Below are positions 19,443-60,400 of a stretch of DNA of 64,000 nt, piece by piece. Below the pieces are notes generated by a model that did no database searches, was not told the DNA's origin, and saw nothing but the letters and a program-made list of their open reading frames with translations. Numbering within the stretch: the first letter of the stretch is position 1; the number at the start of each line of letters is the position of its first letter. The stretch is from Anodontia alba (taxonomy: Eukaryota > Mollusca > Bivalvia > Lucinida > Lucinidae): contig OZ024826.1 in NCBI GenBank assembly GCA_964016985.1, positions 57,535,735-57,599,734 on the forward strand, read 5' to 3'. A program made the translations under genes and the position numbers.

Positions 19443-19477
<35 letters not shown>

Positions 19478-22400: not shown

Positions 22401-25400
22401 AGTCCGGTAATCAATACAGATTCATATGCATATGCCTGTTTGAGTAGTTTCCCTTTGAAGAGATCACATGATCAGCAAAATAAAAAAGCGTAAACAAAAA
22501 AAGCATGGACATGAAAAGGATATCAAATTACTACAAATCAGATCGAGTAGTTTGTTTTGAGCTTTCAGAACCCTGGTATGGGCGAGATAGGTATAAAAAA
22601 TCATGAATATCTTATAGCAATCATTCTATTTCGCATTTTTAACGGGCGATCGTGAATGTCATGAGTTTTCGCGACCGATTATCTTGGTGATTTCTGTCCC
22701 GATTTTGGTGTTCCTATAAATAATACACATCGGATTTTTATAAACGTTTTCTGGGTAAATAAGGTGCGTGTTATACACAGTTAAATACGGTATGCATGCT
22801 TGTAAGTGGTATTGGGAGTTTTTTTTAATTCCTGCTCTGTGATAAATTCACTTACAAATCTGACCAATCATCGCCGATGTCTTCATGTACTTGAGAATTT
22901 CTTAGTGGCAGGGAATGTCTCCGACAGGCGACTTTTTTAACCCATCTTATAATTAATTAAAAGCAAAATCCTGCCTTTTAAGGGCCCAAAAACAGCCCCC
23001 GTCTTATAAACAAATCGTCTTATAGGCGGATTAATACGGTATCCGTACTTTATTTTGAAAATGGCCAAAATTTGCAAAAATCACATTACAATTACCTGAT
23101 GATTTTCTGCCAAAAATTTAACGCGAAGTTACATGGCTTTTGGTTCAAAATGGCGGCAACATGGTAAGCTTGTTTACACAAATGCTTTCACAAATCAAAT
23201 CCAAAGAACTGCATTATTTGTACATAAAATAAATGCTCAGATAATAATTTAGATGACTTCAGAATTATTTTCAGCATTTGTCTCTGTAAGTAGTTATGAT
23301 GAAACGTTTTACCATTAGTAACGTGAAAATACATGAAACCGGGCTAAATTATAACAGCACAAAATTCTAAGATGTGAATTATATGGGACTAGACTTAAAA
23401 AATACAGTAATTATTATACTGTACACATATGTATAGTAAAAACTTAGCAAACTAGATCACAAATCTTGATTTTGATCATGGTTCTGTTGGACATCCCAGT
23501 AGGGCTAGCTGTTGAAAGAACTTATAAGCATTAAAAGCTCTACACAGCTTATGTTGTCTATTTCTTAAATTCTTATATGCAACCTTTTATTTAAGGCTCT
23601 TTATCTTTATTTATAATGACTGAAATATTTTTTACCCACACTCCTCAATTATCTGGACAATTTTTATTAGCTGCAAAAATACCAAGAACATTTTGAATCC
23701 TCAAAGTCATAGTGACATGCCCATGCTCCAACTCTGCACACACATAAGCATATAGGTGTAGGCAAGTGAATTTTGTTGTCTGAACACTAAAGCTGGCACA
23801 ATTGATCAGATACAGTCATTTGGCTAGAACCAGGTAAAGTTATGCTTCATAACATTTTCCAAATAAGTGGCTGATCAAAATCTGGACTTTATTGGCTGAT
23901 ACAGAGTACTAGCCTTCCTTGAAATATCACACCAAAGACTTTGTCCTTCGCCTTAGGTTATCTGCCCTTGTGATGAATGTGAAGTTCTCCACTGATTTGG
24001 CTAGTTCCAAATAGTTTCGCTAGTTCCGAATAATAAATGAGGGATCTGTAAAAATCCCTCACATAATGCAACAGCCTCTATATATTATTTTATCAACTTG
24101 GATAATGTGTTACGGAGAAAATTAATTCAATATAAGACATTTGTCGCAAAGCGACATGTTCACAAAGACCTTAAAACAGATCATTTAAGCAAAAATCGTA
24201 TAATTCATGGCATAACTATTTTTCGGCATGTACACCCTCCTTACTGCAAAATTTAGCTCCTATTTTCTGGATTTAATAATCTTTCCGATATAAATATATT
24301 TCAATGAGGTTTAAGAAGTTGAAAGGAGTATGTGCATAAGGTCCTATTTTCCCCCTTCTGAAGCCCGAAAATAAAATATGCTTGCAGTAAAATTATGCGT
24401 TAATTAATCCAATTGTAGCTTGTGTTTAGCACTGTGTGATGCCGCTACAAAGTCTCCCTGCACTTTGTCAAAGTACAGATAATATATAAGCAACGACATG
24501 AAAAACCTGTCTTCGAGGTTTTCGACCAAATAAGACTCAGACCTGCTTACTCAGCCGTAGACTGGCTAACTCGGCCATTGTGCCAGATTAGCTAGTCTTG
24601 AAAGTTTTGATAGGTTGTTTACTGTCTAGACAGCGAACAACAACGGTGCTGATCAGACTGTGCATAGCAAAAACCACGTGTCTTTGTTGTTCACATATGG
24701 CATAAGATTTTTATCCCATGAAGAGGCTCATGTATCGCTTCAATAGTCTGTCACATGTCTGAGATTCTTGTACATACACTACATCAATATCTACACTCCT
24801 TTAAACACAGCATGTGAACACCTTACCCGAAATTTGATTTCTGGGTCGGTTACTCACCTCAACTCCTTACCATACTTTATTTAAAATTGAACAAGAGGCC
24901 CACGGGCCACTCACCTGAGTAGCATTGTGAGTGCAGATATGCAGATGTTATGTAACATTTTTCCAATCCTGTCATTGCAACTAATGAAAAGATCATCCTT
25001 TAAGCAGTTCTTAATTTTTAAGATGAATATTATATATGGCAAGACAGTCAATGGAGCGTGATCATTTGAACAAACTCTCAATCACATTTCAACAGTAGGA
25101 TCAATGTGAAATTTGGTTGCTATTGCCTAAGTGGTTTCTGAAGAATCATGATTTTACACATGTAAACAGCACAGTGGCAGGGAAATATAATAAACATAAA
25201 CAAGATGGTAGCCATCTTGGATTTCCAATCAGAATGACTTTTAGCTACTGTTGATCTACAAGTCACTTCTATACTTCCAATGAACTTTAAGTCAATTGCC
25301 CTTTCGGTTCAGGGGAAAAAGTTCAAAACAGATTTTCAAGATGGCCACCATAGCCGCAATTTGAGATTTCTTATCGCAACCATTTGAGCGTTTTTTGATC

Positions 25401-28400
25401 TACAAGTCACCCTGATGCTTCCTACCAAGTTTCGAGTCAATAAATGGTCTTTCAGTTCAGAAGAAGTAAAGAAAAATAGATTTTCAAGATGGCCGCCATC
25501 TTGGATTTCCAATCGGAAGGATTTTAGCTATTTTTATATCAACATGTCATCCTGATGCTTCCTACCAATTTTCAAATTAACTGGCCCTTTGGTTCAGGAA
25601 AATAAGTGAAAGGAAAAGAGTTTCAAGATGGCCGCCATGACAGCCATCTTGGATTTCCTATCCAAACAATTTAAGCTATTTTAGATCTACAAGTCACCTA
25701 AATGCTTCCTACCAAGTTTCAAGTCAAATGGCCTTTCAATTCAGGAGAAGAAGCGAAAAATAGATTTTAAAGATGGCTGTCATAGCGGCCATCTTGGATT
25801 TCTGATAGGGATGATTTTATCTATTTTTGATCTACAGGTCACCCTGATGCTTCCTACCTAGTTTAAAGCCAATAAGCCTTTTGATTCAGGAGAAGAAGTG
25901 AAAAATCTACATTTTCAAAATGGCCACCATGGCAGCCATCTTGGATTTCCAATCAGAACGATTTTAGCCATTTTTAATCTATAAGTCACCCCGATGCTTC
26001 CTACCAAGTTTCAAGTCAACTAGCTTTTGGGTTTAGGAGAAGAAGCGAAAAAAAGATTTTCAAGATGGCCACCAGGGTGGCCCTCTTGGACTTCCGATCA
26101 GCATGGTTTTAGCTATTTTTGATCTACAAGTCACCCTGATGCTTCCTACCAAGTTTGGAGTCAGTTGGCCTTTCGGCTCAGGAGAAGAAGCGAAAAATAG
26201 ATTTTCAAAATGGCCGCCATGGTGGCCATCTTGGATTTCCGTTTGGAATGATTTTAGCGTCTTTTGATCTATAAGTCACCCCTATGCTTCCTAGCAAGTT
26301 TGGAGTCAATTGGCCTTTCGGTTCAGGAGAAGAAGCGAAAAATAGATTTTCAAGATGGCTGCCATGGCGGCCATCTTGGATTTCCGATCAGCATGATTTT
26401 AGCTATTTTTGATCTACAAGTCACCCCGATGCTTCTTAGCAAGTTTGGAGTCAATTGGCCTTTCCGTTCAGGAGAAGAAGCGAAAAATAGATTTTCAAGA
26501 TGGTGGCCATCTTGGATTTCTGATCAACATGATTTTAGCTAGTTTTGATCTACAAGTCACCCCGATGCTTCCTAGCAAGTTTGGAGTCAATTGGCCTTTC
26601 GGTTCAGGAGAAGAAGCTAAAAATAGATTTAAGATGGCTGCCATGGCGGCCATCTTGGATTTTCGATTGGCAAGATTTTAACTATTTTTGATCTACAAGT
26701 CACCCCAGTGCTTCCTAGAAAGTTTGGAGTCAATTGGCCTTTCGGTTCAGGAGAAGAAGCGAAAAATAGATTTTCAAGATGGCGGCCATCTTGGATTTCC
26801 GATCGGCATGATTTTAGCTATTTTTGATGTACAAGTCACCCCGATGCTTCCTACCAAGTATTGAGTCAATTTGCCCAGGGGTGTAGGAGTAGGCTTTTAA
26901 ATCAATTGTTGACGTCGCATGACGGACGACGGACATTGACTGACCACAATAGTTCACCATGAGCACTTTGCGCTCAGGTGAGCTAACAAGTACAATTTAC
27001 TACCGAATGTTTTGTCTAAAAATAGCTCAATGGGTGGCAAACAGTTTAGCCCCTGATGTGACACCGCATTTTGTAGCATCTCATGGGGGTTTACAATGTT
27101 TGCTCGGGACTGTCTGGCCAAATACATCCAGTAAAGTATGACCAATTTCAATATAATTTTGCAGGAGTGATACTTTGATGATCCTCTACCAAGATTGTTC
27201 AAGCCATTTGGATTCGTCAAAAAACATGGCCGCCAGGGGGCGGGGCTTATTTTCCCTTTATATCTATATAGAAAACTTTAAAAATCTTCTTGTCAGAAAC
27301 CACTGGACCGATTTCAATATAATTTTGCAGGAATGTTTGTTTGGTGATCCTGTACCAAGATTGTTCAAGCCATCTGGATTCGTCAAAAAACATGGCTGCC
27401 AGGGGGTGGAGCTTATTTTTCCTACATGTATATATCTATATGGAAAACTTTTAAAAGCTTCTTGTCAGAAACACTGGGCCGATTTCAATATAATTTTACA
27501 GAAACGTTCCTTTAGTAATCCTCTACCAAGATTGTTCAAGCCATTTGGATTCCTCAAAAAACATGGCCACCAGAGGTCGGGGCTTATTTTCCCTATATAT
27601 CTATACAGAAAAGTTTAAAAATCTTCTTGTCAGAAACCACTGGACCGATTTCAATATAACACGGCAGGAATGTTTCTTTTGTAACTTTCTACCAAGATTG
27701 TTCAAGCCGTCATGATACGTCAAAAACCATGGCCGCCAGGGGGGTGGGACTTTTTTTTTTTAACTCACCTGACCTCTGCTCAGGATGAGCTATAGTGATC
27801 ACTTTTCCTCCGTCCATTAACATTTTCAAATGACTTCTCCTCTGAAGCCGCTGAGCCAATTTTGCTCAGATTTCATGTGGAGCCTCCTTAGGGTGGGGGA
27901 ACGAAAGATTGCTAAAATGGTCATGGTCCGTTGACCCAAGATGGCCTCCATGCACATATATGGTAAAAAACTTTAAAAATCTTCTCCATAACCGAGGATG
28001 CCTTGGGGCTGAATCTTTGCAAGAATCATCAGGGACAAGAGGTCTACCAAAGTTGTTATAAGATTTGTCGTACGTTGGCATTTGACCTTTTTACGGCAAG
28101 GTCAAGTTTGCTTCCCTATGCTTTTGTGTGGGAAAAACCTTTAAAAATCTTCTTCTTCAAAACCGAGCATGCCTTGTGGCTGAATCTTTGCACATATCAT
28201 CGGGAATGGGAGGGCTACCAAAGTTGCTAAAATAATGGTTGTACATTGACATTTGACCTTTTTGCGGTAAGGTCAATTTTGCTTCCTTATGCATTTATAT
28301 GGGAAAAATGTTCAGAATTTCAAATAACATCTCCTCTGGAGCCTCTGGGCCAAATTTGCTCAAATTTCATATTGAGCCTCCTTAGTTTGGGGGAACAAAA

Positions 28401-31400
28401 GATTGCTAAAATGGTCGCAGTTCATTAACCAAGATGGCCGCCATGCCCATATATGGTAAAAACATTTAAAAATCTTCTTCTCCAGAACCGAGGATGCTTT
28501 GGGGCTGAATCTTTGCATAATTCATCGGGGACAGAGGGTCTACCAAAGTTGCTAAAATTTGACCTTTTTACGGCAAGGTTGTTTGCTTCCCTATGCATTT
28601 ATATGGGAAAAAAACATTTAAAAATGTTATTCTCCAAAATCGAGGATGGCATGTGGCTGAATGTTTGCATATATCATCGGGAACGGGCGGTCTGCCAAGG
28701 TTGCTAAAATAATTGTCATACATTGACATTTAACTTTTACGGCGAGGTCAAGTTTGCTTCTGTATGCATTTGTATGGGCCCCATACATTTGTATGGAAAA
28801 AATGTTGATAATTTCAAATGACTTTTCCTCTGAAGCCTCCGGGCCAGTGTTGCTCAAATTTCATGCAGAGCCTCCTTGGGCAGGAGAATGAAAGATTGCT
28901 AAAATGGGCATGGTCCATTGATCAAAATGGCTGCCATGCCCATATAATGGTAAAAAAAAATTTACAAATCTTCTTCTCCATAACCAAATAAGCCCTGGGC
29001 CCTTATCTTTGCACGAATTATGGGGGACAGGAGAGCTACCAAAATTGCTAAAATGATGGTTCTATGTTGACGTTTGACCTTTTTACCTCCAAGGTCAAAT
29101 TTGCTTCCCCATGCATTTGTATGGGCCATATACATTTATATTGAAAGTATTCAAGTGAATTGTAGATCAACAGTAGTTAAAATTGTTCTGATTGGAAATC
29201 TTAGATGGCCATCATCTTGTTTATATTTATTATATTTCTCTGCCACTGTGCTGTTTACATGTATAAAATCATGATTCTTCAGAATCCACTTAGCCAATTT
29301 CCACCAAATTTCACATTGATCCTACTGTTGAAATGTGATTGATGGTTTATTCAAATGATCATGCTCCATTGACTGTCAGGCCCATATATTCTTCTTCAAA
29401 ACTAAGAACTGCTCAAATGACGATCTTTTCATTAGTTGTGATGATAGGATTGGAAAAATGTTGCATAACATCTGCATGTCTGCAGTCTCAGGTGAGCGAG
29501 CCGTGGCCCGTGGGCCTCTTGTTTCCCTATATATCTATATAGAAAACTTTAAAAATCTTCATGTTAGAAAACACTGGACCGATTTCTATATAACTAGGCA
29601 AAAATGTTTCCTTGGTGATCCTCTACCAAGATTGTCCAAGCCGTCATGATTTGTCAAAAAACATAGCAGCTAGTGGGCGGGGCTTATTTTCCCTATATAT
29701 ATAGAAAACTTTAAAAATCTTCTTGTCAGAAACCACTGGACCGATTTCATTAATACTTGGCAGAAATCTTTCCTTTTGACCCTTAACCAAGATTGTTCAA
29801 GTTATCATGATTTGTCAAAAAAACATTGCCGCCGAGTGGTGGGTGGGGAGGGAGGCTTAATTTCCCTATATATCTATATAGAGAAGTTTAAAAATCTTCT
29901 TGTCAGAAACCAATGGACCAATTTCAATATAGCTTGGCAGGAATGTTGCTTTGGTGACCTGCTACCAAGATTGTTCAAGCAGTCATGATTCGTCTAAAAA
30001 AAATTCTGCCAGGGGGTGGGGCTTATTTTCCCTATATATCTCTATAGAAAACTTTAAAAATCTTCTTGTCAGAAACCACTGGACCGATTTCATTATAACT
30101 TGGTAGAAATCTTTCCTTGTTGACCCTCTACCAAGATTGTTCAAGTTATCATGATTCGTCAAAAAACAATGGCCGCCACTGGGAGGGGCTTATTTTCCAA
30201 ATATATCTATATAGAAAAGTTTAAAAATCTTCTTCTCAGAAACCAATGGACCGATTTCAATATAACTTGGCAGGAATGTTTCTTTGGTGACCCTCTACCA
30301 AGATTGTTCAAGCCGTTATGATTCATCAAAAAACATGGCGGCTAGGAGGCGGAGCATATTTTCCCTATATAGAAAACTTTAAAAATCTTCTCGTAAGAAA
30401 CCGTTGGATTGAGTTCAATGTAACTTGACAGGAATGTGCTTTGGTGACCTTCTACTAAGATGGTGCCCTCATGATACGTCAAAAAACATGGCCTTCATGG
30501 GGCGGGGCTTATTTTCCGTATATATCTGTATAGAAAACTTTAAAATTCATCTTGTCAGAAACCACCTGACTGATTTTAATATTACTTGCCAGGAATGTTG
30601 CTTTGGTGACCCCCTATCAAGATTGTTCAAGCAATCATGATTCGTCAAAAAACATGGTTGCTAGGGGTGGGGCTTATTTTCCCTATATATCTAAATAGAA
30701 AACTTTAAAAATCTTCTTGTCAGAAACCACTGAACCGATTTCAATATAACTTGGCAGGATTTTTCCTTTGGTGACCCTCTACCAAGTTTGTTCAAGCTGT
30801 CATGATTTGTCAAAAAACATGGCCGTTAGGGGGTGGGGCTTAATTTCCCTATATATCTGTATAAGACATTTTAAAAATCTATTTGTCAGAAACCACTGGA
30901 CCAATTTCAATATAACAGCAGAATTGTTCCTTTGGTGATCCTCTTTCACTATTCAGTTCAAGCCATCATGATGGATGAAATAAACATGGCCACTGGGGTG
31001 CAGGGTTATAAAATTTATACAAAAATTTTAGAGCAGTAAACTTGGCTGAAACTTCAACAGTAAGTATGCAAAGCTGTTTGCTCAGGTGAGCGATATAGGA
31101 CCATCATGGTCCTCTTGCTTTTTTTTTTTCCCCCATTGGACCTAGCATGCCAGTTATGCCTGTTTTTGAATCTATTCTGTTCTAAATATTCCCCCCCCCC
31201 CCCTCCCCCCACACACACCCTTGGATGGGGACGCCAGTGCTGATAAGATCTGCACCAAAAGCAATATACCCCCTCCCGCTTGAGCTAGGATTCTGATATT
31301 TATGTCTCCTCCCTTTAGGGTAGGGAGATGTGTATTGTTTTTTCCCTCGGGCGTCTGTCACAAATCTTGTCCACTCTGTAACTTGAAAATGGTTCAAGCT

Positions 31401-34400
31401 GTCTCCACATAACTTCATATAAATATCAATCAACATTATCTTACATGCAGAGCACAAGAACCATACGTCTTGCATTTAATCTTTTTGAGTTATTTCACTT
31501 GGAACTTTATGCGTCACAAAATCGTGTCCGCTCTGTAACTTGAAACCTGTTCAAGATATCTTCAAGAAAGGTCATGTAAATATCAATCAGCATTAGACAA
31601 CATGCAGCGCGCAAGAACCATAACTCTTGCATTTATACTTTTTTGAATTATTATACACCTGTTTGAAAAACGGGACATATTATTTTACGGGGTATGACGT
31701 CCGTCAGAAAACTTTTTCGTTTCCGGCTAACGCCTCCTACAGTTTACATCCGATTAAAATGAAACTTGGTATATAGCTAGACCATGATGTGAAGCAGCAA
31801 ATATTGTTTTTGGGCTACAGACCACCAATTATTAGCAGAGCTATGCCCCTTCGAAAATTTCAGAAAACATTTCGTTTCTGGTTAACTCCTACACTTTACA
31901 TCTGATCAAGCTGAAACTTCATTTATAGTTAGACCATGATGTGGAACAGTGCATATTGTTTTGAGGTTACAGTCCACTTGATATCAGCAGAGTTATAGCC
32001 CTTTGAAAATTCCTTTAAACTTTTCGTTTCCGGATAACTGCTCCTACAATTTACATCTGATCAAGCTGAAACTTCATTTATAGTTAGACCAAGATGTGGG
32101 GGCAGTGCATATTGTTTCTAGGTCACAGTCCACCAAATATTAGCAGAGTTATGTCCCTTTTAAAATTTCATTAAACTTTTCGTTTCCGGCTAACTCCTCC
32201 TACAATTTACATCCGATCAAGCTGAAACTTCATTTATAGCTAGACCATGATGTGGAGCGGCATATATTGTTTCAAGGTTACAGTCCACTAAATATTAGCA
32301 GAGTTAAGCCCCATTGAAAATTTCTTTAAACTTCTAGTTTCTGGTTAACTCCTCCTACAATTTATATCCGATCAAGCTGAAACTTCATTTATGCTATAGT
32401 TAGACCAAGATGTAGAGAAGGGCGTATTGTTTTGAGGTTACAGTCCACCAAATATTAGCTGAGTTACGCCTAGTGGTGGGACGATTCATCGATGCATTGG
32501 TGCATCCCGATACGCTTCATGTATCGATACACATGATGGAGTATCGATATGATGAACGCTTCTATTCAGATTCGCTTATTTGTGTTCGTTACATTCTTTA
32601 ATCCGGTCTACAAAGTGACATTTTCAGAGCGCGATTTTGATTGGATGACGCTTGACTGATAGCCAATTGCATTTTGCTTTACTCTCATTATGATGGCAGA
32701 CGAAACTGTGGTTGGAATTTATTCGCCGCCCAGCGGTAAAAATACTAGTTCTGTATGGGAATGTTTCGGCCATCCTATTCTTACTTTTGAAGTTAGCCAT
32801 TTTTAGTGTTTCAGTATTATGGACAATGCATGTTTAAGGGAAACCATATAGTTGGGGTCATAGTGTTGTTCAAACACATGTTCTAGTTCATTATAATTTC
32901 AACACAAAAACATGTTGGAACTTATTAGAAGGTCATTCATTGGTAGGGCTCTTTTAATGAATATCCACAACATATATTCCTTAAGAAAAATAAGAAACAT
33001 GCCAGTAATTTTTATTCAAAAAGTGTGTTATCTAACTGATAATACAGGTAAATAATAACGTTACTTTACGCATGTTAAAGTTAAATAAAAGTGTAGTTAA
33101 AAAGAGATTCAGAACCACCACAGAGTAATGTACATCCAGTATAGCAACTGTAGTTACTCTGAATTGTTCAGAAGGCGGTGTCGCGAAAAAAGGCATTAAC
33201 TTAATTACATAATTAGATTTATATGATTTGATGGACCTGGATTTTGCTCTATATCCATATTTTCACACTTTCTTACAACCAGTGGCTTCATCCAATATTA
33301 AATTTACATTCAGAGACAAGGCTTTGTGAGAAAATTTACTATTCCTTGAAAAACAACCAACATGAACACTTTGTACTACATGCTTTCACTATCAATTTAA
33401 TTTCTCAAAATCAGTCAGATGGAAATGCATTCTACTTCTTTTAATGTATAAATAAGAATGGGTCTTTACTGAGGCATCTGTGTAAAACAGATATACATAA
33501 ATAAGCTAACCATGTACTGAAAAACTAAGTACAATAATTTCTCTTCTGTTTTGTTTCTTTCTTTACAAAAAAATCCATTTTATTATCTGCATATATAAGC
33601 CAATGCAGTGATTGGAGTAATGAACCTCTTTATTTTCCAATGAAGTTTACCACCTGATTATTCCAAATGAGTGTATCTCCAGCAGCAATTTCCAATTTCT
33701 AGAATTATCAAAGTTCAAGTCTAGATATGCTCCAGTTCATACATATTCAACACCTGATGTAGCTCCACGATTATTCTGGTGCAATTTTATAAATTTATCT
33801 TTATCAACTTATTATGAAGACGAGCAGATTAAATAAATTTGAAATGGCTATGTTCAATCCAGATTAGCTTTAATAACTGATTGTCATTTGATAGTGCTTC
33901 ACCTAAGCATCAACAGATTAGCCCGACCAGCTATGCCTACCCTTTTCTGTTTTCAAGAGATTTTCCGATGTCCACAAAAGAAGGGTCATAACGTATAAAT
34001 GGGCCAGCAGTCGTCAGACAACTCCGTGTCACTGAGGTGTGAATAAAGTAATTTCATGTAGGATGAATGAATTAAATGCCTGATGTCTTGCTATATTCAA
34101 TATCGAATAAGTAGATTCTAATACTTTCTTTTCGTTCAGCTTCCGTTGCTAAGCACAACATCAAAGATGGCGTGTGGTGATTGACAAAAGTAGCGCGTGT
34201 ATTACTACACCGAATTTTGAAGTCTATGTTTCAAATTGCACTGTCTAAATCGATTTCAGTTACAGTTATGTTAGCGAAATAGAAAAGCTATAAAAAATTC
34301 CCCTGCTTCACATTCAGTTCGCCGTAATAGTGCCGCATTGCGTCTGATTAAGAAGTAGTGCGCGTATGAATATAGCGGTGATGAAAATCCGCTTGTGACG

Positions 34401-40400: not shown

Positions 40401-43400
40401 TATCAAAATTGTTGTATCTCCCTTTGCTTTGTGAAAGATGTAATGGTTATTGTTATGTAATTCAAATTTTATAATGTAATGAGACATTTAATTAACTACA
40501 TGTATATTAGGCTATAATTGACCTCAGGTCTGCATATCCCAAAAAGGGATCATATGTGCAGATTGATCTAAGCCTTACGATGTTCATGTTGTAAGATCCT
40601 TGTATGAGACAGGGTATGAATAGGTAATACTGGGTAAGAGGTAATTGTTACATCATTACGAAAACAAGCCTATTCAAATATACTAAAAATTTTAGCACAA
40701 AAAAAATGAAAAATTTCAGTAAAAAATTTGGATATTTTTCAAATTTCTGCTCAAAACATAGATTGTGGGTACTCATTAGAACTGCCTCGATGAGGCAGTT
40801 CTAACGAGTACCCACACGAGTACCCACAATGTATGTTTTAGAGCAGGAATAAGAACAATAATGTTTACCTCTGTTAACCCCAGTTTTACTATATAAAAGT
40901 GGGGTTTAAGGGGGTAAACATTATATAGACATGTTTTCGTGATTTTTTGCTTTTTGTTTCTAGGATATAGAAGTTTGATTAAGACATGTGTCTTACAGTA
41001 TGATGAGAAATATATTATTGAAACAGATACAGATATACAATGTGTGATCTGAACATAAAATTATGGCAGTGAAATCATACATTTTGGGATCTTACCATTG
41101 CAGATGTACAACTTCTTAAGATTCTGTGAACTGATTGTGAAATCGAAAGCTCCTGTGAAGTGTATAAAGCTGACTACAGGACAAGATGATGTAAGTTCTT
41201 TGTAGTTCATTATTGTGAATTCAAAAGCTCCTGTGAAGTGTATTAAGCTGACTACAGGACATAATGAAGTGACTACAGGACAAGATGAAGTAAGTTCTTT
41301 GTAGTTAATTATTGTGAAATTGAAAGCTCCTGTGATGTGTATTAAGCTGACTACAGGGCAAGATATGATGCAAGTTCTTTATAGTTCAGTCTTGTAAAAT
41401 TGAAAGTTCCAGTGAAGTGTATTAAGCTGACTACAGGAGAAGGTGACATAAGTTCTTTGTAGTTCATTATTGTGAAATCAAAAGCTCCTGTGATGTGTAT
41501 TAAGCAGACTACAGGACAAGAAATATAAGTTCTTTGTAGGTCAGTATTGTGAAATCGTAAGCTCCTGTGATGTGTATTAAGCTGACTAAAGGAGCGGCTG
41601 ATGTAAATTCTTTGTAATTCATTATTGTGAAATTTAAAGCTCCTTTGAAATGAATTAAGCTGGATATAGGACTACGAGGGCGTGTCAATAAATAACCAGC
41701 CTATCCCATTTCCGATGGACCGATATGGTCACGATTTTCATGCTTTGTTTCAATATATGTTTTATACATGGGTACAAAATTGCACACGTGTCGAGTCATT
41801 CTTTAATAAGATATTGAATGTCAAACATGGCTAGTGATGCAAAGGCATGCTTTTCATCTAAAGTTGAGTATCGTGCTGTAATTCGGTACTTGTCTTTAAA
41901 AGTAAAACAGGCAAGGAAATACACGACGAGTTAGCCGATGTTTATGGGTCTTCTGCACCATCTTATGCTCAGGTTAAATTCTGGGTAGGGGAATTCAAAC
42001 GCGGTAGAATGTCTTTAGAAGATGATGCCAGGTCTGGACGCCCACTGGATGCCTCCGACGAAGAAATGTGTAAGAAAGTTCGGGATCTGGTATACTCTGA
42101 TAGGTGAATTCAGGTGGACGAAATAGCGCAGGCATTTCACATGGTAGCATTTCAACAATCTTACATGATCGTTCAGGTATGCGCATCTAACAGACCGTTG
42201 GGTCCCCAAATCCCTTAGCGATGAGCAAATGGCAACCAGAGCATCAGTATGCAGCGCCTTGTTGAAGTGTTTTAGGTCCAAAGACGATTTTCTTTTGCGT
42301 CTGGTGACTGTTGATGAGACTTGGGTTCATTATTATGAGCCAGAGAATAAAGCTCAGAGTCATCAGTGGGTAGGGCCTGGGTCCCCTAGGCCAAAGAAGT
42401 TCAAAACGCAACCATCTGCTGGCAAGGTGATGGCCACAGTATTTTGGGACGCAAAAGGCGTTATTATGTTGGACTTTTTACCCAAGAGAAGTACAATAAC
42501 TGGAGTGTACTGTGCAAACTTGTTAGACCAGCTGAGAACCGCCATCCGTGAAAAACGCCGAGGTAAACTCTCTAAAGGTGTTTTGCTGCAACAGGACAAT
42601 GCGAGAGTCCACACTTGCAAAGTTGCAATGGATGCTGTAGAGTGAAATGGGTATGAATTAATACCACATCCTGCCTATTTGCCTGACGTAGCTGCTAGCG
42701 ACTTCTTCCTATTCCCAAACTTGAAAAAGGATATCCGTGGACTTCATTTCCAGTCTGATGAAGAAGTCGTGACGGCAGTTGAGGAGTGGGTCAATGGAAA
42801 GGATCCTGACTTTTTCAGTTCTGGGCTGATGGCACTTGAACACCATTGGTCTAAGTGCATCACACTAGAGGGCAATTACATCGAAAAAGAAGAGGTGGAT
42901 ATAAGTTAGGCTGGTTACTTATTTACTCACCCTCGTAGATGACATAAGTATTTTGTTAGGTCATCGTTAATGCTGTTTATAGTAACTTTGGTAACTATGT
43001 TGAAGTTAAGGTTTTTACAATGTTCCTTTATTTCTATTCATTTTCTGAATGTATATACTCTTTATTACAGGGATTTTTTTTTGTAAATAAAAGAATTCAT
43101 TTATTACTTTGGTCATCAATGCTTAGCATTCTGGTGAAAATTTTCAACAGACAACATAGTGAATTTTTTCCCTAAAACAAGTTTTGATATTTCATCCAAT
43201 TGTCTCCAGTGGAGAGAGTTTGCATGGAATGTCAAATCCTGTTTCCAGAGCAAAATAAGAAAAAAATATCATCAATATGCTGAATTCACCCATGGAGTGG
43301 TAAAGGTTAAAATACAGACTTGTCTTTTTTCTGTGGAACAATATGTGCTATTTTGTAAAAGAAGTAATCAGCTTTATAACTTTTTGTTTCAAACTCACAG

Positions 43401-50104: not shown

Positions 50105-53100
50105 CTGTGCTGTAAGCTGACAGAATAATTGGATTCCATGGTTACCGATTAAGTGAATACTAAATTAAAATATCAGTGGATATCATTTTTAAATACATTC
50201 ATATTTTTCGTAGAAAATGCGCCGTATGCAGCCCTGAAAACTACACTGCTGCGTTTGAAGAGTCTCAGTGAATCCGAGGCTCAAGTTTTCTTCATTTTAT
50301 GTGTTTGGTTCCTAGGGCAACTTTTATAGATTTTATATGACATATGCAAACTATATATTAGGACATGATTCGCATGAAAACTTTTAAACACTCTATTCTC
50401 TTTATAAAACTGAACGGCTGAAATCATTTGGGCAGCTGTGTAAGCAAATGTACACAAATGTACACTATATCTGAAAACAGAGTTACATTCAAAGCTGGAT
50501 ATTTCAATTTTGTTTTCTCGTTATTTCACGTGAACAGACTGAATCAAGCTGATTCTGCTGTTTTCTGGCTTTGGTGTATGTATTTCAAAGGGGTCCCTAG
50601 TTCTGAATATTTTTTTTTTCTTCAAGAATGTGTTTGAATCAGTGCTGTAGCCAGAAAGGAATTATTTTTATGCACACATGGTAAAAATGTTGAAAGTTTC
50701 TCCCTATTATCACTTCGAAAATAGGGGCTACTCTTAAAGGATAACATGCTTCCAGAGGAAGTAAATTCTTTCCTTTAAGATTTGGGACGATACATTTTAT
50801 CCATTAAGAGCAGCCCTTATGGTAAAGAAGCAAAATATTTTATGTTAGTTGATGTCTCTTCATTGCAACTATTTTTCTTACGCATGTTACGCTCATGCAT
50901 ACTGCACGTTTGAGCGCTACATTTTTAGACATACCTGCATCATTTTGTATGGTATCGACCAATACCTGCTGCTCCTTCCTAGAGTTTACACTGACCAGAT
51001 GACTAGCAATGGATTCAGACTTACAAGTTCTTATTGCATCATACCATGAAGCTGGTGACACATGGAATGTATAACAGGAAGTTGTGTTACCATCTACCAT
51101 TTTACGCGCGCCTGGTGGGCAGGAGGAAATTGCTGAAATATGAGTTTAGACAATTGTAATGTCATCATTCCGGCTAGCATTTTACTTAAATCTATATCGG
51201 CTCGTTATTGGTCCTAATTAATGGTCCGATGTACAGTCGAACAATGTCTCGAACATCTTCAGGACCATTACAATTTGTTCTAGACATAGGTAGTTCGAGC
51301 CATTGAGGGTTATCATAGCGATAGGTCAGGAGACAAGTGGGGATGATTTAGGGATATCTTTTCGATCTCCTATAAAATAATGGTATGTTTAGTGTACCCA
51401 TCCGAATCTCCTTGATGAGGTGATTCTAATAGGTACAGACAACATGCATTTTCATTGAAATAAGGTAAAATGCCCTAAAATATCCCTAAATATTTCAGGG
51501 TTTTCTTGAGCTATCACATTGATCATTCACATGAATGGTATGCCAAGGGGAATCTTCAACCAAAGTAGACATGAGGCCTTGCTGAGGGGCCCGGCATATC
51601 ATCACGAAAACATACCTATATAATTTTGACCCCCTTAAACCCCACTTTTATATTGTAAAACTGGGGTTTACAGGGGTATGCATTATTTTTCTTTTTTCTG
51701 CTCAAAAACATAGATTGTGGGTACTCATTAGAACCGCCTCGGCAAGGCGGTTCTAACGAGTACCCACAATCTATGTTTTTAGCAGAACTATGAAAAATAT
51801 TAGAATTTTTATCTGAAAATTTTCAGTTTTTGGTGGTGAAATTTTCAATATATTTGAATAGGCGTGTTTTCGTAATGGCACTAATAGATTAATTCTACGG
51901 AAAGCCTGAAGAGCCTTTTTTCAAGGCGCAGCTCATGTTTTCCCAATTAGTGTACATAAAGAAAGAAAGGAGATCTCGGTTATCAATATTTTGAGTGTTG
52001 ATCCACTGATGTATTTGTGAACCCCTACGCAGACCTAAGGATAAAGACCTTTTGTGGCTTCCAGTTTGCATTCCTATAGAGCTAATGCCCTTTGAAAAGA
52101 TGTTTACTCTAAAAGGAAAGAATTTGAGGAGAGCAAATTCAAAAGGGAATAAAATAATTTTGAAAAAGATGACTCCTGTGTAAGTGCATTAGTTCCCCTT
52201 AATTTTATTAATTTTGAAAGGGTTGCTGTCTTCATTTATAATTATGTTAGGACATGAAAGTCGCAACAAAGGAATGAAGCGTAGCTGAAAAAGATTTCCC
52301 GCCTACCGTAGGATTCGAACTCAGTCTTCCCGGATAAAATTCTAGTGCTCTAACCACTGAGCCAAAGGGTCGACTCCCTGACGCAGATATCAGAGATTGA
52401 ATATATTCCTACAAGCTATGCGTAATCTGTCAAGACAGATAATCAAAGGTAGGATTGCTAGATCGTAACACCCCCACCCCCTTTTCAAGGAAGCATATTT
52501 TATGATGACATGAAGCCATTTTCGGTGAAATAAAGTCCTATCCCGGACGAGCCCCCAACTTAAGACATGGAAGTCGCATTAAAGGAATGAAGCATAGCTG
52601 AAAGAAATTTCCCGCCTACCATGGGATTCGAACCTGGTCTGCCCGGAGAAAAATCTAATGCTCTAACCACTGAGCCAAAGGGTCGACACCCTGACGCAGA
52701 TATCAGAGATTGAATATATTCTTACAAGCTATGCGTAATCTGCCAAGGCAGATAATCGAAGGTAGGAGTGCTAGGCCGTAACAATAATATAGTTCAATTC
52801 TATTAATGTATTGCAAGATTAATAATTAAAAGTTTAAAATTTTTTATGAATATGAAATCCATGATGGCAGATTTGAAATACACAATAATAATAAAAATGC
52901 GCAGGCTGATCTGTCATTGCTTTGAATTCTGTGGGTAGCAAAATATCCATACTTCTAGTGTAGTTTATATTATCTGAGTCTTTGTGATCATTGTGCTCAT
53001 TTATGGCAAGCCGTTTTACTATTTATTAAGCAAAATAGATATCTTATATATTATATCAGATATCTTATATAGGATATAAGATATCTAATATAGGATATAA

Positions 53101-56100
53101 GATATCTGATATACTAATTCAGATATCTTATATCCTATATTAGATATCTTATATCCTATTTAAGATATCTGATATAATATATGAGATATCTTATTTAATT
53201 CCGCATATAAGATATCTAATTTACCATATAAGATATCTTATTTGTTAAATAAGATATCTTATTTATTAATATAGATATCTAATATACTAAATAAGATATC
53301 TGATATACTAAATGAGATATCTTATTTGATTTAATAAATGAGATATCTTCTTTAGTAAATAAGATATCTTATATCCTATATGAGATATCTTATATAGCAT
53401 ATCAGATATCTTATATAGCATATTAGATATCTTATATGTCAATTCAGATATCTTATATAGCATATTAGATATCTTAATTGACATATAAGATATCTATTTT
53501 ATATAAGATATCTAATATAATATATCAGATATCTGATATATTATATAAGATATCTGATATATTAAATCAGATATCTGATTTATAGAATAAATAGTAAAAC
53601 CGCTTTCTGGCAAGCCATTTTACTATTTATTATACAGTATATCAGATATCTTATATAGGATATAAGATATCTAAAATAGGATATAAGATATCTGAATTAG
53701 TATATCAGATATCTTATATCCTATATAAGATATCTTATATCCGATATAAGATATCTGATATACCATATTAGATATCTTATTTAATTCCACATATAAGATA
53801 TCTTATTTACCATATAAGATATCTTATTTGTTAAATAAGATATCTAATATATTAATATAGATATCTGATATACTAAATAAGATATCTGATATACTAAATA
53901 AGATATCTTATTTAATTGAACAAATGAGATATCTTCTTTAGTAAATAAGATATCTTATATCCTATATAAGATATCTTATATAGCATATCAGATATCTTAT
54001 ATAGCATATAAGATATCTTATATGCCAATTAAGATATCTTATATAGCATATCAGATATCTTATATAGCATATAAGATATCTAAATTGACATATAAGATAT
54101 CTTATTTATATAAGATATCTAATATAATATATCAGATATCTTATATATTATATAAGATATCTGATATATTAAATCAGATATCTGATTTATAGAATAAATA
54201 GTAAAACGGCTTGCCATACTCATTCCGTGATTTTTGAAAATTTATTATATGAAGGCCACAGAGGAGTTCTTATTTGCCGAAATTAGCTAGTCTGGCCCAG
54301 AAAACAACATATCAGCTGTTTTCAGCATTGTTAGTGTGTTTTTTTTTTTTGCTCTCGATGGTCATTCCGCTTAGAATCTGTTTCTAAAGACGAACGGCAG
54401 AATGTGTGGATGGTCAGGCTGATCTGAGCCTTTTTAAAGGCAGTGCTGTGCTTGGGTTATCATCTAATATAATAGTCTTTAAACTAGGCCACACCATGCA
54501 AAAACGTATCTTCACTTTTATGCGGGTAGCGACGTCCTTGATCAGCCGTGCAGTCTGATCAGAGTCCTTGCTGTGGGTCGGGTATAAAAGCCAAGTCCGA
54601 TCCGATCCGCCGATCATTTTTCTGCCGATCATAAATTTTATTTTTGTCATTATATCTAAGCTATGATTCAAATGTCCAGTATATCAGTTTTATATGATCA
54701 TATTATATAACTGTAATTTACAGCAATGATATTATTAAAATTGTTGTTCTAGTTTTTGATTGAGAGTAATTATTTCTCGTTTCAGGGGTATAAAAGCCAA
54801 GCTCGGAAGAAAAAATAGCTGAGAGAGATTTCTTGATTTTTTGTCTTTGTTTTGTCCTTTTATAGAACTATGACTGCTGAAATTTAAGTACATGTGCATT
54901 GTGATTCAACAAGCATATACATATGTTTCAATAAAATCAGTTTTTTCCCGTTTGTTTACCAAATTAGACGCATCTATTAATAGACCTGTAAACATGACGT
55001 TACATACAACAACGTCCTGAAATGAGACGAAATGGGGGAATTTTCAAAATTCTTACCGCGGAAGATAGCGTTTTAAGAATATCTAATAGATATTAATATC
55101 TGTATTAATGTTATTTCTCCTTTTTCGTCTATTTTTTATTTTTTTTGTACAGTAGTAGTTGGGTCATTTTGTAGCTTTCGTATTCGGTGCGGTCCGGCGT
55201 TTCTATGTTTAGAATAGTATCCGTGCAAAGCAAAGATGGACAGAAAAAAAAGACTAAAATAGTTTATATATGACATAATTTTCATATGCAAGAAACTAAT
55301 TATGTTCTAGTGACCATTTATTCTCGGAGACAGAGCTGATCTCTGTATATATAAGCTTAACTACTGAAAAAACTATGATTTTCTTATATTTACTGGACTT
55401 GGCTTTTACAGTGGCGATAGCGTTTTTCTTGTCCACGGAAACGCATGCGAAACGCTTATTAACGATTTGGAAACGCAGCGTTTGGACAACGCTTAAACGA
55501 TCGTTTGCGGTTTTAGCCAATCAGATCATCGTTTCTGAAACGTTTCAAGCGTTTCGAATATTAGCCAATCAAATTAGCGTTCGGAAAACGCTGTCATGGA
55601 AACCCTGTCTGGTTGCAAACGTTTCATCGTTTGCATCTTTAGTCAATCAAAACCCCGCGGACTCAAGTTATTTAAGATTTTTTTTTTTTTTTTTTTTTTC
55701 AGTTTCACTTAATTATAATAACTATTCAAGTCACGGTTTTGCACATGTAACATTCACTATATTACCGTATACGGGAGTTCCCCTTTCAAGATTGCGTTTT
55801 CGTAATATTTTGCCTCAGTGAGACAATTCTAATAAATATCCATAACAAAATTATTTTAGTGGAGAAATGAAGACTCATATTAATTATCATCAAATACTCT
55901 ATGCTACATGAATCTGGAGTAATTAATGTATATAATATCATGATATTTTTCTAATTTCATTTACATTTTTAATTATTTATTATACCATTTCCTTTTGTTC
56001 TAAATTTAATCTTTTGACCTTTCAAATGTAACATAATATTAGCTAGCCTATGTATTGCTTAAGGAGGATGAGATACAGGAAATGCTCATTCCATGTACTG

Positions 56101-57430: not shown

Positions 57431-60400
57431 CCTACAAATAAATACAGTTACGGGGCATTAGTTATACCATGGTTCCTGCGCATGTACGATGTGATAATGC
57501 ACAAGCGTGTTGCGTGTTAGTATAACCTGATTTAACACATTTTAAGTAGATCATCCATATCCCGAGATATTTTATGCTGGATGTTGGGAAGCTTGGCCAC
57601 TATATGATAAATATAGGGCATCCGCGCATTCTGATCTGGTTCGTTTCTGCTCATCTGTACAATGTCTTGTTCGATACGATTTGCCAACAGTTTGGCACAT
57701 CATCTTCTAACATTTAACTTATTGTAGACTGAATGAACTCACCCACACTATATATTGGAAATTCTAATTTCGATTTTAGGTATGCCAGGCTATATTATTT
57801 AATTATTCAGAGAAACACATGGTTGAACTAATTGCCAACAGTGGAGACCCTGATCAGACGCCGCGTTCTGCGGCGTCTGATCTGGGTCTCCACTGTTTGC
57901 CAATTACCGTTTTAAGGGTTTCCGGACTATAATGGGTTAAATACAGCGTGCTTTAAATGCGAAATTCTAAATTAGTCTAATATTTACGTATAGCTTGCAT
58001 TTTGATCTGATTCGTTGCAGTTCGTCTGTACATTGTTTTTTTTTATTATTATTATTATTTTATTTATTCGATATGATCTGCTGTTACTCCAGTGCATCGT
58101 CTTCTAACATTTAAGTATATTTTGCAGTATGCAAAATTCTAGATTAGAATGTGCATCCGCGCATTCTGATCTGGGTAATTGCTACTCGTCCACACATTTG
58201 TTGCATTTGTTAATCTGTTAATCCAGCACGTCGTCTTCTAATATTTAAATATTGCTAAATATAGCGTGCTAAAGGGTTAACAGCTTTGCATTATCATACC
58301 AAAAATTTTTTCATAGTGGAAATATACACTTTCACGAAAGCCCTGCAGCAAGTTATTCGCCGACTGACCACATAATTGTTCAGATGTGCACAGTGCATCG
58401 TATTTGAAAAATAATGGTCCAAACAAGTAAAAATGAACCTGTTTACATTTTATAAATCTGATCAGTCTGTATATAAGTTGGATACTGTACAATTCATGTA
58501 TCACAGTATTTTATACTATTAATACCTAATCAGTGAACTGGGTGGGCACCATTATGCACTAGACTGCGTCACGCACTCTGATCTGAGTAATACATATGCT
58601 CAGAGGGAGATTTTCACTTGGTAAAGATCTAATGAAAGGATTAATATTGATGATACTTAATTCTAGCAATATATTTCAGTAATGCAGGTCATCTGTTCAA
58701 GCACTATTTGTCTAAACGTCAGTGCACATTTCATTAAAAAAAAAATAATAATAATATTACTCAAAACAATAATAGCAATTCACAGGTTTGACGTAGTTCA
58801 GTTTGGTGCAGAACGAAAACCTTTGATCTTGATCACGCTGCGAAGGTGATCTGGTTGAATATATATTTGAGCCCCTTCGAAAAGAAATGAGAAACGACCT
58901 TATGGTATTTGAGACCACCTTAGACCAAGATAAACCGGCATTTCCGCGTATTCTGATCTTCTGAATCTACACATATCGCCAACAAAATGCAGTATGTCAA
59001 CGATTCGTTGTCCAGTTGAACCTTTATCACTCTCTGGGCTAACTCAGCAGATGATCAATTCATGAAGTGTTTTCTTATTTTCTCCCATAAAACAAGTTTT
59101 GACATTTCACGCAAATTACTGATCTCGACTGAAGACAATTTGCATAGGAAGTCATATCCTGTGGAGATAATATGTATGAAATGCCGACACCTTTTTCAAG
59201 GTAACAGAAGAAAAATGCTTCAAAATGTCATCTGCTAAAAATTTTATACAGTGTACTTATAAGCCTTAAAACATTTATCTGTCAAAACAAGTTGATTGTG
59301 GTGTGAAAATAATATTGGGCTTCACAAAATATAATAATTCTTTTGAAAATAGAAAATTATCTCAATAAAACAATAAAATATGTTTTAGCAAAAAAGTAAA
59401 AAAAAAAAAAAAAAAAAAAATACAGAAAATGACAAAAAAAAAAAAAAAAAAAAAAAATCGTAGATAAATATTATCTATGTGTAAAAAAAAATGTGGTTTT
59501 AATATGATTCAATAAATGAGAAAAAAAAAACAACTTCAAAATGTCATCTGCTTAAAATTTTATACCGAGCACTACGCGCTAAAACATTTAATTGTCAAAA
59601 GAAAATGATTATCATGATTGTAGTGTGAAATATTAGGCTTCACAAAATATAATAATCAATCACATTAATTCTTTTGAAAATACGAAATTATCTCAATTAT
59701 AATTATTTATAAAAAAAAAAAAAAAAAAGAAAGAGAGAAAGAAAATACAATAAAATAAATACAATTTTTATACATAAACTCATATTACTTTAGTTGTAAA
59801 GACAATATTTAATACGGTCCAACAGGTATTTATTATTCGATTGGTCTATACATACAAACGGTGCCAAACGATCATATGATTGGCCGAAACGGAAAACAGC
59901 GTTTCGATAAGGCCAGATGATTGGCCGAAACGGTGAAAAGCGTTTCGATAAACGTTCGTAGCTCTTCAGTGCGCATGTGCAAATTTAGCGTTTGCATGAA
60001 ACGCTTTGCTCTGTAATTTGATTGGCCGAAACGATATGAAACGCTAGAAACGTTGTCGAAACGCAAACGTTATACAACGATTTCAAAACGCACCCCAAAC
60101 GCGTAAACGGACAAGAAAAACGCTATCGTCCCTGTATACCCCTAGAAGACAGAAAACTGCTTAAAAATCAAATCCAAAAGCATTGAAAAAAGAAATATCT
60201 TTTGTCGAATATTTAATTAAGCAATGTATGATAATATAAAACTGATATACTGGACATTTGAATCGTAGTTTAGATATAATGACAAAAATAAAATTTATGA
60301 TCGGCAGAAAAATGATCGGCGGATCGGATCGGACTTGGCTTTTATACCCGACCCTTGCTGTGCGCATATAGAATCATCGGATACTACAGAATGTATGAAT

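Follow-up and report, generated by a model that had tools for sequence, protein, structure and literature searches.

In a 64,000-nt stretch of Anodontia alba DNA, here called the window, the palindromic octamer AGATATCT recurs often and regularly within a single block. Exact counting located 52 octamers within positions 53037–54183, 26 in each of two head-to-tail units, and 54 in the whole window, compared with a mean of 1.5 and a maximum of 5 in 100 shuffles. The octamers follow one another in steps of 21 bp, except for two steps of 26 bp (18-nt spacers) and one of 18 bp (10-nt spacer) in each unit. The array comprises the following features.

53002–53608, plus strand: unit A, with 26 octamers and a degenerate right end
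53037–53576, plus strand: octamer array of unit A
53108–53120, plus strand: spacer A4, exact reverse complement of B3
53192–53209, plus strand: 18-nt spacer A8
53323–53340, plus strand: 18-nt spacer A14
53496–53505, plus strand: 10-nt spacer A22
53586–53631 (53586–53608 minus strand, 53609–53631 plus strand): unit junction, where decayed inner ends abut
53609–54218, plus strand: unit B, with 26 octamers and the right end
53644–54183, plus strand: octamer array of unit B
53694–53706, plus strand: spacer B3, inverted relative to A4
53778–53795, plus strand: 18-nt spacer B7
53909–53926, plus strand: 18-nt spacer B13
54103–54112, plus strand: 10-nt spacer B22

These counts bear out the original prediction of 52 octamers phased mostly at 21 bp in two units, and the irregular spacers correspond between the units as predicted, at A8/A14/A22 and B7/B13/B22 with the index shifted. 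The figure of 26 octamers per unit also stands, but the equality is a coincidence: an additional octamer occupies the left edge of unit A, and unit B has an additional repeat further right. Nor do all sites lie on one face of the helix, as had been proposed: assuming a helical repeat of 10.5 bp, the six octamers of the second block are off by 0.48 turn, the third block by 0.95, almost back in register, and the last four octamers by 0.67. The claim that spacers vary around an unbroken octamer holds in the comparison of unit A with unit B, in which 0 of 200 octamer columns differ compared with 35 of 385 others, 5 of these 35 being supplied by the exactly inverted pair A4/B3.

The block is a copy of a gene-less transposon

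Inspection of the borders of the block revealed a pair of inverted ends flanked by a short direct duplication.

52996–53001, no strand: left target site duplication CTCATT, 6 bp; the identical 6-mer adjoins both ends
53002–53027, plus strand: left terminal inverted repeat, 26 bp, starting with TATGG and perfectly matching the right end
54193–54218, minus strand: right terminal inverted repeat, 26 bp
54219–54224, no strand: right target site duplication CTCATT

A closing inverted repeat had been foreseen and is present, though the perfect repeat spans 26 bp rather than the 23 bp given. Equal 6-mers at the separation of the two CTCATT copies occur at 20 of 61,000 window positions. No stop-to-stop open reading frame of at least 100 amino acids overlaps the block, and scanning the window for Rfam families and tRNAs gave no hit.

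A genome-wide search for the 23-bp end, as the original prediction had proposed, gave 3,752 matching places in the 1.86-Gb assembly. Both ends and a target duplication were present at 43 of 61 sampled loci (60 on contig C1 plus the window copy), the duplication being exact at 39 and with one mismatch at 4. On other contigs, both ends and an exact duplication were present in 20 of 20 young copies. One copy on C1 (L052) is identical to the window copy, which lies on contig C6, over 1217 letters and has a different target duplication, so the family has been mobile recently. The block is therefore one copy of a dispersed, gene-less, non-autonomous DNA transposon and not free satellite DNA, and the earlier suggestion of a transposon with satellite filling was right, given ends and target duplications at many loci.

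Copies vary in length around the two-unit form. With an exact-flank pattern applied to the 61 loci, 29 of 31 unit junctions measured 38 nt, and the exact degenerate junction version of the window copy occurs at 31 places genome-wide. Each of 33 two-unit copies holds between 25 and 52 intact octamers, and whole octamers are gained or lost in 21-bp steps (15 deletions of 21 bp), so the exact octamer number does not seem critical. Three apparent trimers of about 1.5 kb (L017, L058 and L034) each contain, by eye, a single long foreign stretch inside the array and were thus read as two-unit copies with insertions. Five one-unit copies combine an A-type left end with a body that by eye is A-like, B-like or mixed, and were consequently read as collapsed dimers.

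The termini of the element, TATGGCAAGCC...GGCTTGCCATA, conform to the TAYGG..CCRTA type, as do those of most sampled copies, with point variants in some. IS3EU elements are described as having TA..TA termini and usually 6-bp target duplications (PMC10045372), and TAYGG..CCRTA termini with 6-bp duplications have been reported for the IS3EU type (PMC12730594). The original prediction knew of no named family for this layout; the ends and the 6-bp duplication fit these published hallmarks. It is very unlikely that the element comes from a different superfamily whose ends are alike, such as one making TA or AT duplications, with the longer CTCATT match arising by chance: TA or AT likewise adjoins the GGCAAGCC core here, yet it is the full TAT/ATA-ended repeat that the 6-bp duplications adjoin, both in the 61 loci and in all 20 further copies. 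Even less credible is an ordinary satellite or higher-order repeat with no tie to transposition, which would account for 21-bp tandem repeats in a duplicated unit but not for discrete 26-bp ends, dispersed 6-bp duplications and the occurrence of an identical copy on a second contig of chromosome size. Assignment to satellite DNA was set aside for this block, which has inverted ends and a target duplication at its borders; its other copies were retrieved through their ends. A foldback element was rejected as well, since that class combines internal tandem repeats with very long inverted repeats and the ends here are 26 bp, though the interior folds on itself.

Transmitted mutations spare the octamers

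Because the genome holds many copies, new mutations can be separated from transmitted ones. Across the 33 two-unit copies, we compared private mutations, found in a single copy, with variants in at least three copies. Private mutations affected 174 of 13,095 octamer cells (1.33%), 36 of 2,978 cells in the unique spacers (1.21%) and 307 of 18,132 in the 13-nt spacers, the octamer rate being slightly under that of the 13-nt spacers (p = 0.01). Variants in at least three copies were found in 0 of 416 octamer columns, compared with 13 of 92 in the unique spacers and 30 of 572 in the 13-nt spacers (column tests, p = 1e-10 and 9e-8, respectively). The private rate is roughly flat across the 21 repeat positions, and all eight octamer positions are free of transmitted variants. 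Five alignment settings applied to the same copies gave 0 or 1 octamer variants in at least three copies against 13 in unique spacers; certain settings or subsets contain one octamer variant present in three copies, and three copies (L030, L047 and L049) have in common one 5-bp deletion within an octamer. Two-copy octamer variants numbered 22, with 16–17 expected from recurrence.

On a tree of the copies, branches with at least three tips carried 0 of 215 octamer changes compared with 33 of 590 changes in spacers and junction, a contrast biased toward spacer changes on inner branches because the tree was made from non-octamer columns. With two-tip branches included, 14 of 215 octamer changes fell on inner branches, and the contrast with octamers gave p = 0.002 for unique spacers, 0.05 for 13-nt spacers and 0.17 for the junction. 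Mutations in the young set hit 17 of 10,379 octamer cells and 42 of 18,694 others (p = 0.34), and private-to-transmitted ratios of 17:0 and 42:7 gave a non-significant contrast when this set was taken alone (p = 0.18). When singletons were compared with variants in at least two copies, the short segments at the ends, with 13 events, showed no contrast to the octamers (p = 1.0); transmitted mutations spare the octamers as they spare the outer ends.

With no octamer variants in at least three copies despite a spacer-like private rate, the octamers look constrained in the propagating lineage, as judged from these alignments. Five A/T-rich positions in the spacer (2, 5, 6, 10 and 12) likewise lack transmitted variants, so the constrained site may exceed the octamer. 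The original prediction had named octamers that mutate as fast as spacers and a drifting period as signs of ordinary satellite evolution; the outcome is mixed, in that octamers mutate about as fast as unique spacers and 21-bp gains and losses occur, while octamer mutations are hardly inherited. Its suggestion of a dimer-binding array gains indirect support from this pattern.

Possible causes of the constraint

On balance, we favour a high-copy, recently mobile, non-autonomous IS3EU-type transposon whose octamers would be needed for propagation as putative protein docking sites. The main rival keeps the same transposon but has the octamers homogenised in its source copies, where adjacent repeats would undergo exchange or hairpin-templated correction and no protein would bind; exchange would then be visible in spacers and not in octamers, since spacers differ among themselves. 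The exact inversion A4/B3, with A4 in the middle of a quasi-palindrome of 155 bp that has 9 mismatched letters, and the recurrence of spacers in both orientations within the array show that hairpin or exchange events happen, and the frequent 21-bp deletions and the folding of single-stranded unit A, far better than that of shuffles (z about −28, 20 shuffles), point the same way. However, the unique 18- and 10-nt spacers, whose only counterpart is in the other unit and which lack an adjacent exchange partner, carry the most transmitted variants per column with a private rate close to that of the octamers. Bases flanking the octamers are complementary in 16 of 52 cases against 20.7 expected by chance, giving no signal of hairpin covariation, and individual copies retain their private octamer mutations, which gives no sign of correction in them. 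We consider homogenisation unlikely, if a serious contender. Still less probable is a role for a host factor, acting in chromatin, replication or transcription, that would recognise the octamer and aid survival or mobilisation of the same transposon, although the constraint tracks a specific sequence and no result links it to a transposase.

The best reading of the octamers is as putative docking sites for a transposase or companion protein. The element moves as a fixed two-unit body of 1217 bp including its TAT ends; many copies show insertion by way of the outer inverted repeats of 26 bp, with a 6-bp target duplication. Its interior is a minisatellite presenting AGATATCT once every two helical turns. 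Octamers would be required for spread: copies that lose them pile up and leave few or no descendants, a pattern for which selection is the presumed cause. Most likely, each palindrome would be bound by a dimer, either of transposase or of a protein that comes with it, by analogy with Galileo, whose internal repeats are reported to contain extra transposase binding sites (PMC3688188). Such an array may draw the docking protein onto the gene-less element, giving it an edge in competition with other copies. Counting against docking, 52 sites seem redundant, yet each would need to bring enough advantage to be retained. It is conceivable, if rather doubtful, that nearly the whole body amounts to some fifty ordered docking sites for a borrowed transposase, each selected in the lineage that propagates, with the head-to-tail dimer and its abutting ends fixed, possibly through an end-to-end joined intermediate. 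Bacterial IS3-family elements form end-to-end joined intermediates.

Satellite-like filling of small transposons may be regarded as passive baggage. If the octamers are docking sites, the family offers a natural test of gene-less elements competing for transposase by multiplying sites, and is suited to finding the partner and the site that it reads.

Candidate partners and related elements

Searches of the genome by the ends and by an IS3 profile found no autonomous partner or transposase, so that both the IS3EU assignment and docking stay tentative. An 18-bp end with a different continuation had 0 matches; the one match to the whole 26-bp end followed by unusual sequence was another array copy. 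The NCBIfam IS3 model was scored on 70 of 2,526 candidates; among these 70, the two best IS3-like matches outside contig C240, both on C7, combine an integrase core with an OTU domain, and in neither did we find TAYGG..CCRTA ends flanked by a 6-bp duplication. Two further candidates were rejected: L065/L075 looks by eye like a two-unit copy split by LINE-like sequence, and L066/L076 resembles an old, truncated copy next to a RecQ-like helicase and a DUF6589 gene, where 29.9 kb contained no credible left end.

The available descriptions of IS3EU and GingerRoot (PMC10045372, PMC12730594) share with this element the TATGG..CCATA termini and 6-bp target duplications; it differs in that no transposase was found and its body is a palindrome array, and the fungal TET-bearing IS3EU families are given inverted repeats of more than 30 bp (PMC12730594) as opposed to 26 bp here. 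Inverted ends, a target duplication, no coding capacity and internal tandem repeats place the element among tandem repeat-containing MITEs, and those of the clam Donax trunculus are likewise reported to combine short inverted ends with a minisatellite core; the core here differs in its alternating two-palindrome 21-bp repeat, its mostly two-unit form and the apparent constraint on an 8-bp site. BrickBuilt of Porphyromonas gingivalis also has a minisatellite core between short inverted ends, made of 23-nt repeats that lack spacers (PMC4596501). The foldback-like Drosophila elements Galileo and Tetris (PMC3688188, PMC4079207) have internal repeats too, reported within long inverted repeats rather than between 26-bp ends; Galileo belongs to the P superfamily and Tetris makes 8–10-bp duplications, in contrast to the 6 bp here. 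In Pacific oyster, the IS3EU-annotated satellites CgiSat35 and CgiSat47 share the tie between satellite and IS3EU, with monomers of 690 and 129 bp, and the available part of their description makes no mention of octamer arrays (PMC8268682).

A literature search with AGATATCT as a whole word returned no paper, and none was found on this transposon family, which is not proof of absence. The block matched nothing in plasmid or phage collections, and viral contigs matched neither three phased octamers nor a 22-bp piece of the end. Three phased octamers did occur in six stretches of a prokaryote collection; transposon ends were seen in none of the six, which were set aside, and L001, L003 and L005/L006 look by eye like 21-nt repeats coding for heptads.

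An ordered octamer array in a two-unit element

The block at window positions 53002-54218 contained 52 intact copies of the octamer AGATATCT, an 8-bp palindrome, within two head-to-tail units (A and B); shuffled windows held a mean of 1.5. Octamers followed one another in steps of 21 bp, save for two steps of 26 bp and one of 18 bp per unit, leaving common 13-nt spacers and unique 18-nt and 10-nt spacers, and they share a helical face within blocks only. In each 21-bp repeat two near-palindromes alternate: one is the octamer, the other a spacer rich in A/T whose middle varies. When unit A was aligned with unit B, none of 200 octamer columns differed and 35 of the 385 remaining columns did, a count that omits gaps and 16 columns that are octamer in one unit only. 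Twelve of the 19 differences in 13-nt spacers fell on the two octamer-touching bases, excluding the inverted pair formed by spacers A4 and B3. These two are exact reverse complements of each other, and A4 sits at the centre of a 155-bp quasi-palindrome.

Ends, target duplications and recent movement

The outer ends of the block form a perfect 26-bp inverted repeat (TATGGCAAGCC...), abutted on each side by CTCATT. Equal-separation 6-mer agreement occurred at 20 of 61,000 window positions, and at the thresholds used the block ends were the sole TAYGG..CCRTA pair in the window with 6-mer-matching flanks. Searching the assembly (1.86 Gb, 317 contigs) for the 23-bp end, allowing 3 mismatches at most, revealed 1,882 forward and 1,870 reverse places, which are not equivalent to elements, as one element has up to four ends; the reversed control gave 1 and 0.

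Copies were sampled from the first 100 end matches listed, all exact and all on contig C1, which a hand count grouped into 61 clusters; 60 were fetched. Among these and the window, 43 of 61 loci had both ends and a 6-bp duplication with at most one mismatch (39 exact), a tally rather than a rate, because the duplication criterion itself was used to choose candidate end pairs. The other 18 include stretches too short for both ends, a locus with an exact duplication and one end missing a base (L023), one with a 7-base repeat (L019) and one with no duplication (L020). The 39 exact duplications comprised 38 distinct sequences and display a weak symmetric target preference: their middle four bases are A/T-rich, and the outer two are more often G or C.

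The window's degenerate junction, which marks a young subfamily, was found at 31 places in the assembly; 26 of these lay outside the loci sampled above, and 20 of them were retrieved. These 20 copies, from contigs other than C1 and not selected on duplications, all had an exact duplication. A copy on C1 (L052) equals the window copy, which lies on contig C6, over all 1217 letters and has a different target duplication; the family has therefore moved recently.

Origin of the two-unit form

The 43 complete copies comprised 33 with two units (1050-1262 bp), 5 with one unit, 2 shortened and 3 longer. With an exact-flank pattern, 31 junctions of abutting inner ends were detected in 31 of the 61 loci. 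Because 29 of the 31 are 38 nt long and vary by substitution only, dimerisation probably happened once; the window junction is a degenerate version. Variants present in at least three copies, hereafter transmitted, numbered 5 in 46 inner-end columns and 0 in 52 outer-end columns, as expected if the outer ends alone are used, with the comparison of singletons and transmitted variants not significant taken alone (p=0.14). Bacterial IS3-family elements have joined-end intermediates, which the head-to-tail meeting of ends recalls.

Octamer mutations and their transmission

The 33 two-unit copies served as the constraint sample, and mutations confined to one copy (private) were taken as mostly recent.

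Private mutations per cell, and variants in at least three copies, among 33 two-unit copies
Octamers: 174/13,095; 0 in 416 columns
Unique 18/10-nt spacers: 36/2,978; 13 in 92 columns
13-nt spacers: 307/18,132; 30 in 572 columns
Outer ends: 15/1,716 (biased low, since the exact end was used to find copies); 0 in 52 columns
Middle junction: 7 in 67 columns (transmitted variants)

Octamers acquired private mutations yet held no transmitted variant. Column tests separated them from unique spacers (p=1e-10) and 13-nt spacers (p=9e-8), and the ratio of singletons to transmitted variants differed from that of 13-nt, unique and junction columns pooled (p=3e-8). At a sharing threshold of at least two copies, the contrasts were 3e-6 with unique spacers, 0.007 with 13-nt spacers and 0.03 with the junction, and none was detected with the short end segments (p=1.0, only 13 events in the segments); the 22 two-copy octamer variants were near the 16-17 that chance recurrence predicts. 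The private rate was roughly flat across repeat positions (0.7-2.2%). None of the eight octamer positions had a transmitted variant, nor did spacer positions 2, 5, 6, 10 and 12; such variants clustered at spacer positions 1, 7 and 13.

Five alignment settings of the 33 copies gave 0 or 1 transmitted octamer variant against 13 in unique spacers, and subsets of 11 and 30 copies gave 0 against 1 and 1 against 10, respectively. On a tree built from non-octamer columns, branches with at least three tips held 0 of 215 octamer changes and 33 of 590 changes in spacers and junction (p=6e-5), along with 0 of 18 in outer ends and 0 of 13 in short end segments; adding two-tip branches raised the octamer count to 14 of 215, and the contrasts fell to p=0.002, 0.05 and 0.17. 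In the young set (n=25), new mutations numbered 17/10,379 in octamers and 42/18,694 elsewhere, outer ends excluded (p=0.34), and transmitted variants 0 and 7, too few alone (p=0.18).

This pattern suggests selection on the octamers in the lineage that moves. Several observations count against constraint: intact octamers ranged from 25 to 52 per copy, deletions overlapped octamers wholly in 45 cases and partly in 69 across the 33 copies, one partial deletion is common to three copies, and private mutations are themselves somewhat rarer per cell in octamers than in 13-nt spacers (p=0.01). Exchange between repeats can likewise yield spacer variants without octamer variants, an account that may hold for source copies; the unique spacers count against it as the whole story. 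Array deletions in the 33 copies clustered at 2, 5 and 21 bp (27, 33 and 15 cases), a pattern that would be expected from slippage between short direct repeats.

If the octamers are selected, a dimeric DNA-binding protein may dock on them: a sequence-specific 8-bp palindrome that recurs every two helical turns and appears constrained in the moving lineage is what such docking would lead one to expect. The simplest candidate would be the transposase or a protein accompanying it. Internal repeats of Galileo hold further binding sites for the transposase domain, with a suggested role in binding specificity, according to the abstract of PMC3688188, and PMC4079207 argues for Tetris that more repeats may increase transposition efficiency.

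Family assignment and search for a transposase

IS3EU elements have TA..TA termini and, as a rule, 6-bp duplications according to PMC10045372, and PMC12730594 gives TAYGG..CCRTA termini with 6-bp duplications; the ends of the block fit both descriptions. By its ends and duplication, the element is a putative IS3EU-type member whose transposase was not found in genome searches. Searching the assembly for the end pattern with another continuation gave 0 matches, and a second such search gave 1, itself an array copy. With the NCBIfam IS3 model, 70 of 2,526 candidates in the genome were scored. The top-scoring contig, C240, had 11 matches to this bacterial transposase model, 10 above the curated cut-off and several with the same score, and looks like a bacterial contig within the eukaryotic assembly. 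The next-best two matches belonged to an element with integrase-core and OTU domains; its own ends were incompletely defined, and a search of it for TATGG-type ends flanked by a 6-bp duplication found none. Contig C7 carries two copies (L081, L082) of an element that codes for an integrase core and an OTU protease domain, with approximately 93-95% identity across more than 5 kb. A truncated old copy of the octamer element at L076 has frames of a RecQ-like helicase on one side and a DUF6589 gene on the other (locus positions 3385-7768, 9200-9901).

Other features of the window and loci

42169-42645, + strand: part of a mariner-type transposase (match to Pfam Transposase_1 at E 4.6e-23)
19181-19951, - strand: match at E 5.4e-11 to PF04843, a herpes tegument N-terminal domain family
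18571-19071, - strand: frame adjoining the PF04843 frame, with 19 relatives at 72-98% identity, PF04843 in three

The minus-strand region 18571-19951 is probably a repeated mobile-element gene. A MIT domain is also present in the window; together with the mariner-type fragment and the 1.86-Gb assembly it marks the DNA as eukaryotic, probably molluscan. Locus L077 has frames that by eye resemble the mariner-type fragment. Left of the block, 52617-52680 has a tRNA-derived (SINE-like) look by eye, and ARAGORN detected no tRNA there; nearby, 52287-52470 repeats left-flank sequence at 90%. The right flank (54219-54700) includes 126 bp that recur inverted at 60229-60354 with 97.6% identity, and 25211-32470 contains several long tandem arrays whose units measure approximately 136-171 bp. 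Near the edge of a Chlamydiia metagenome contig (L004, 21-154), six copies of AGATATCT are spaced at 21 or 42 bp with A/T-rich spacers.
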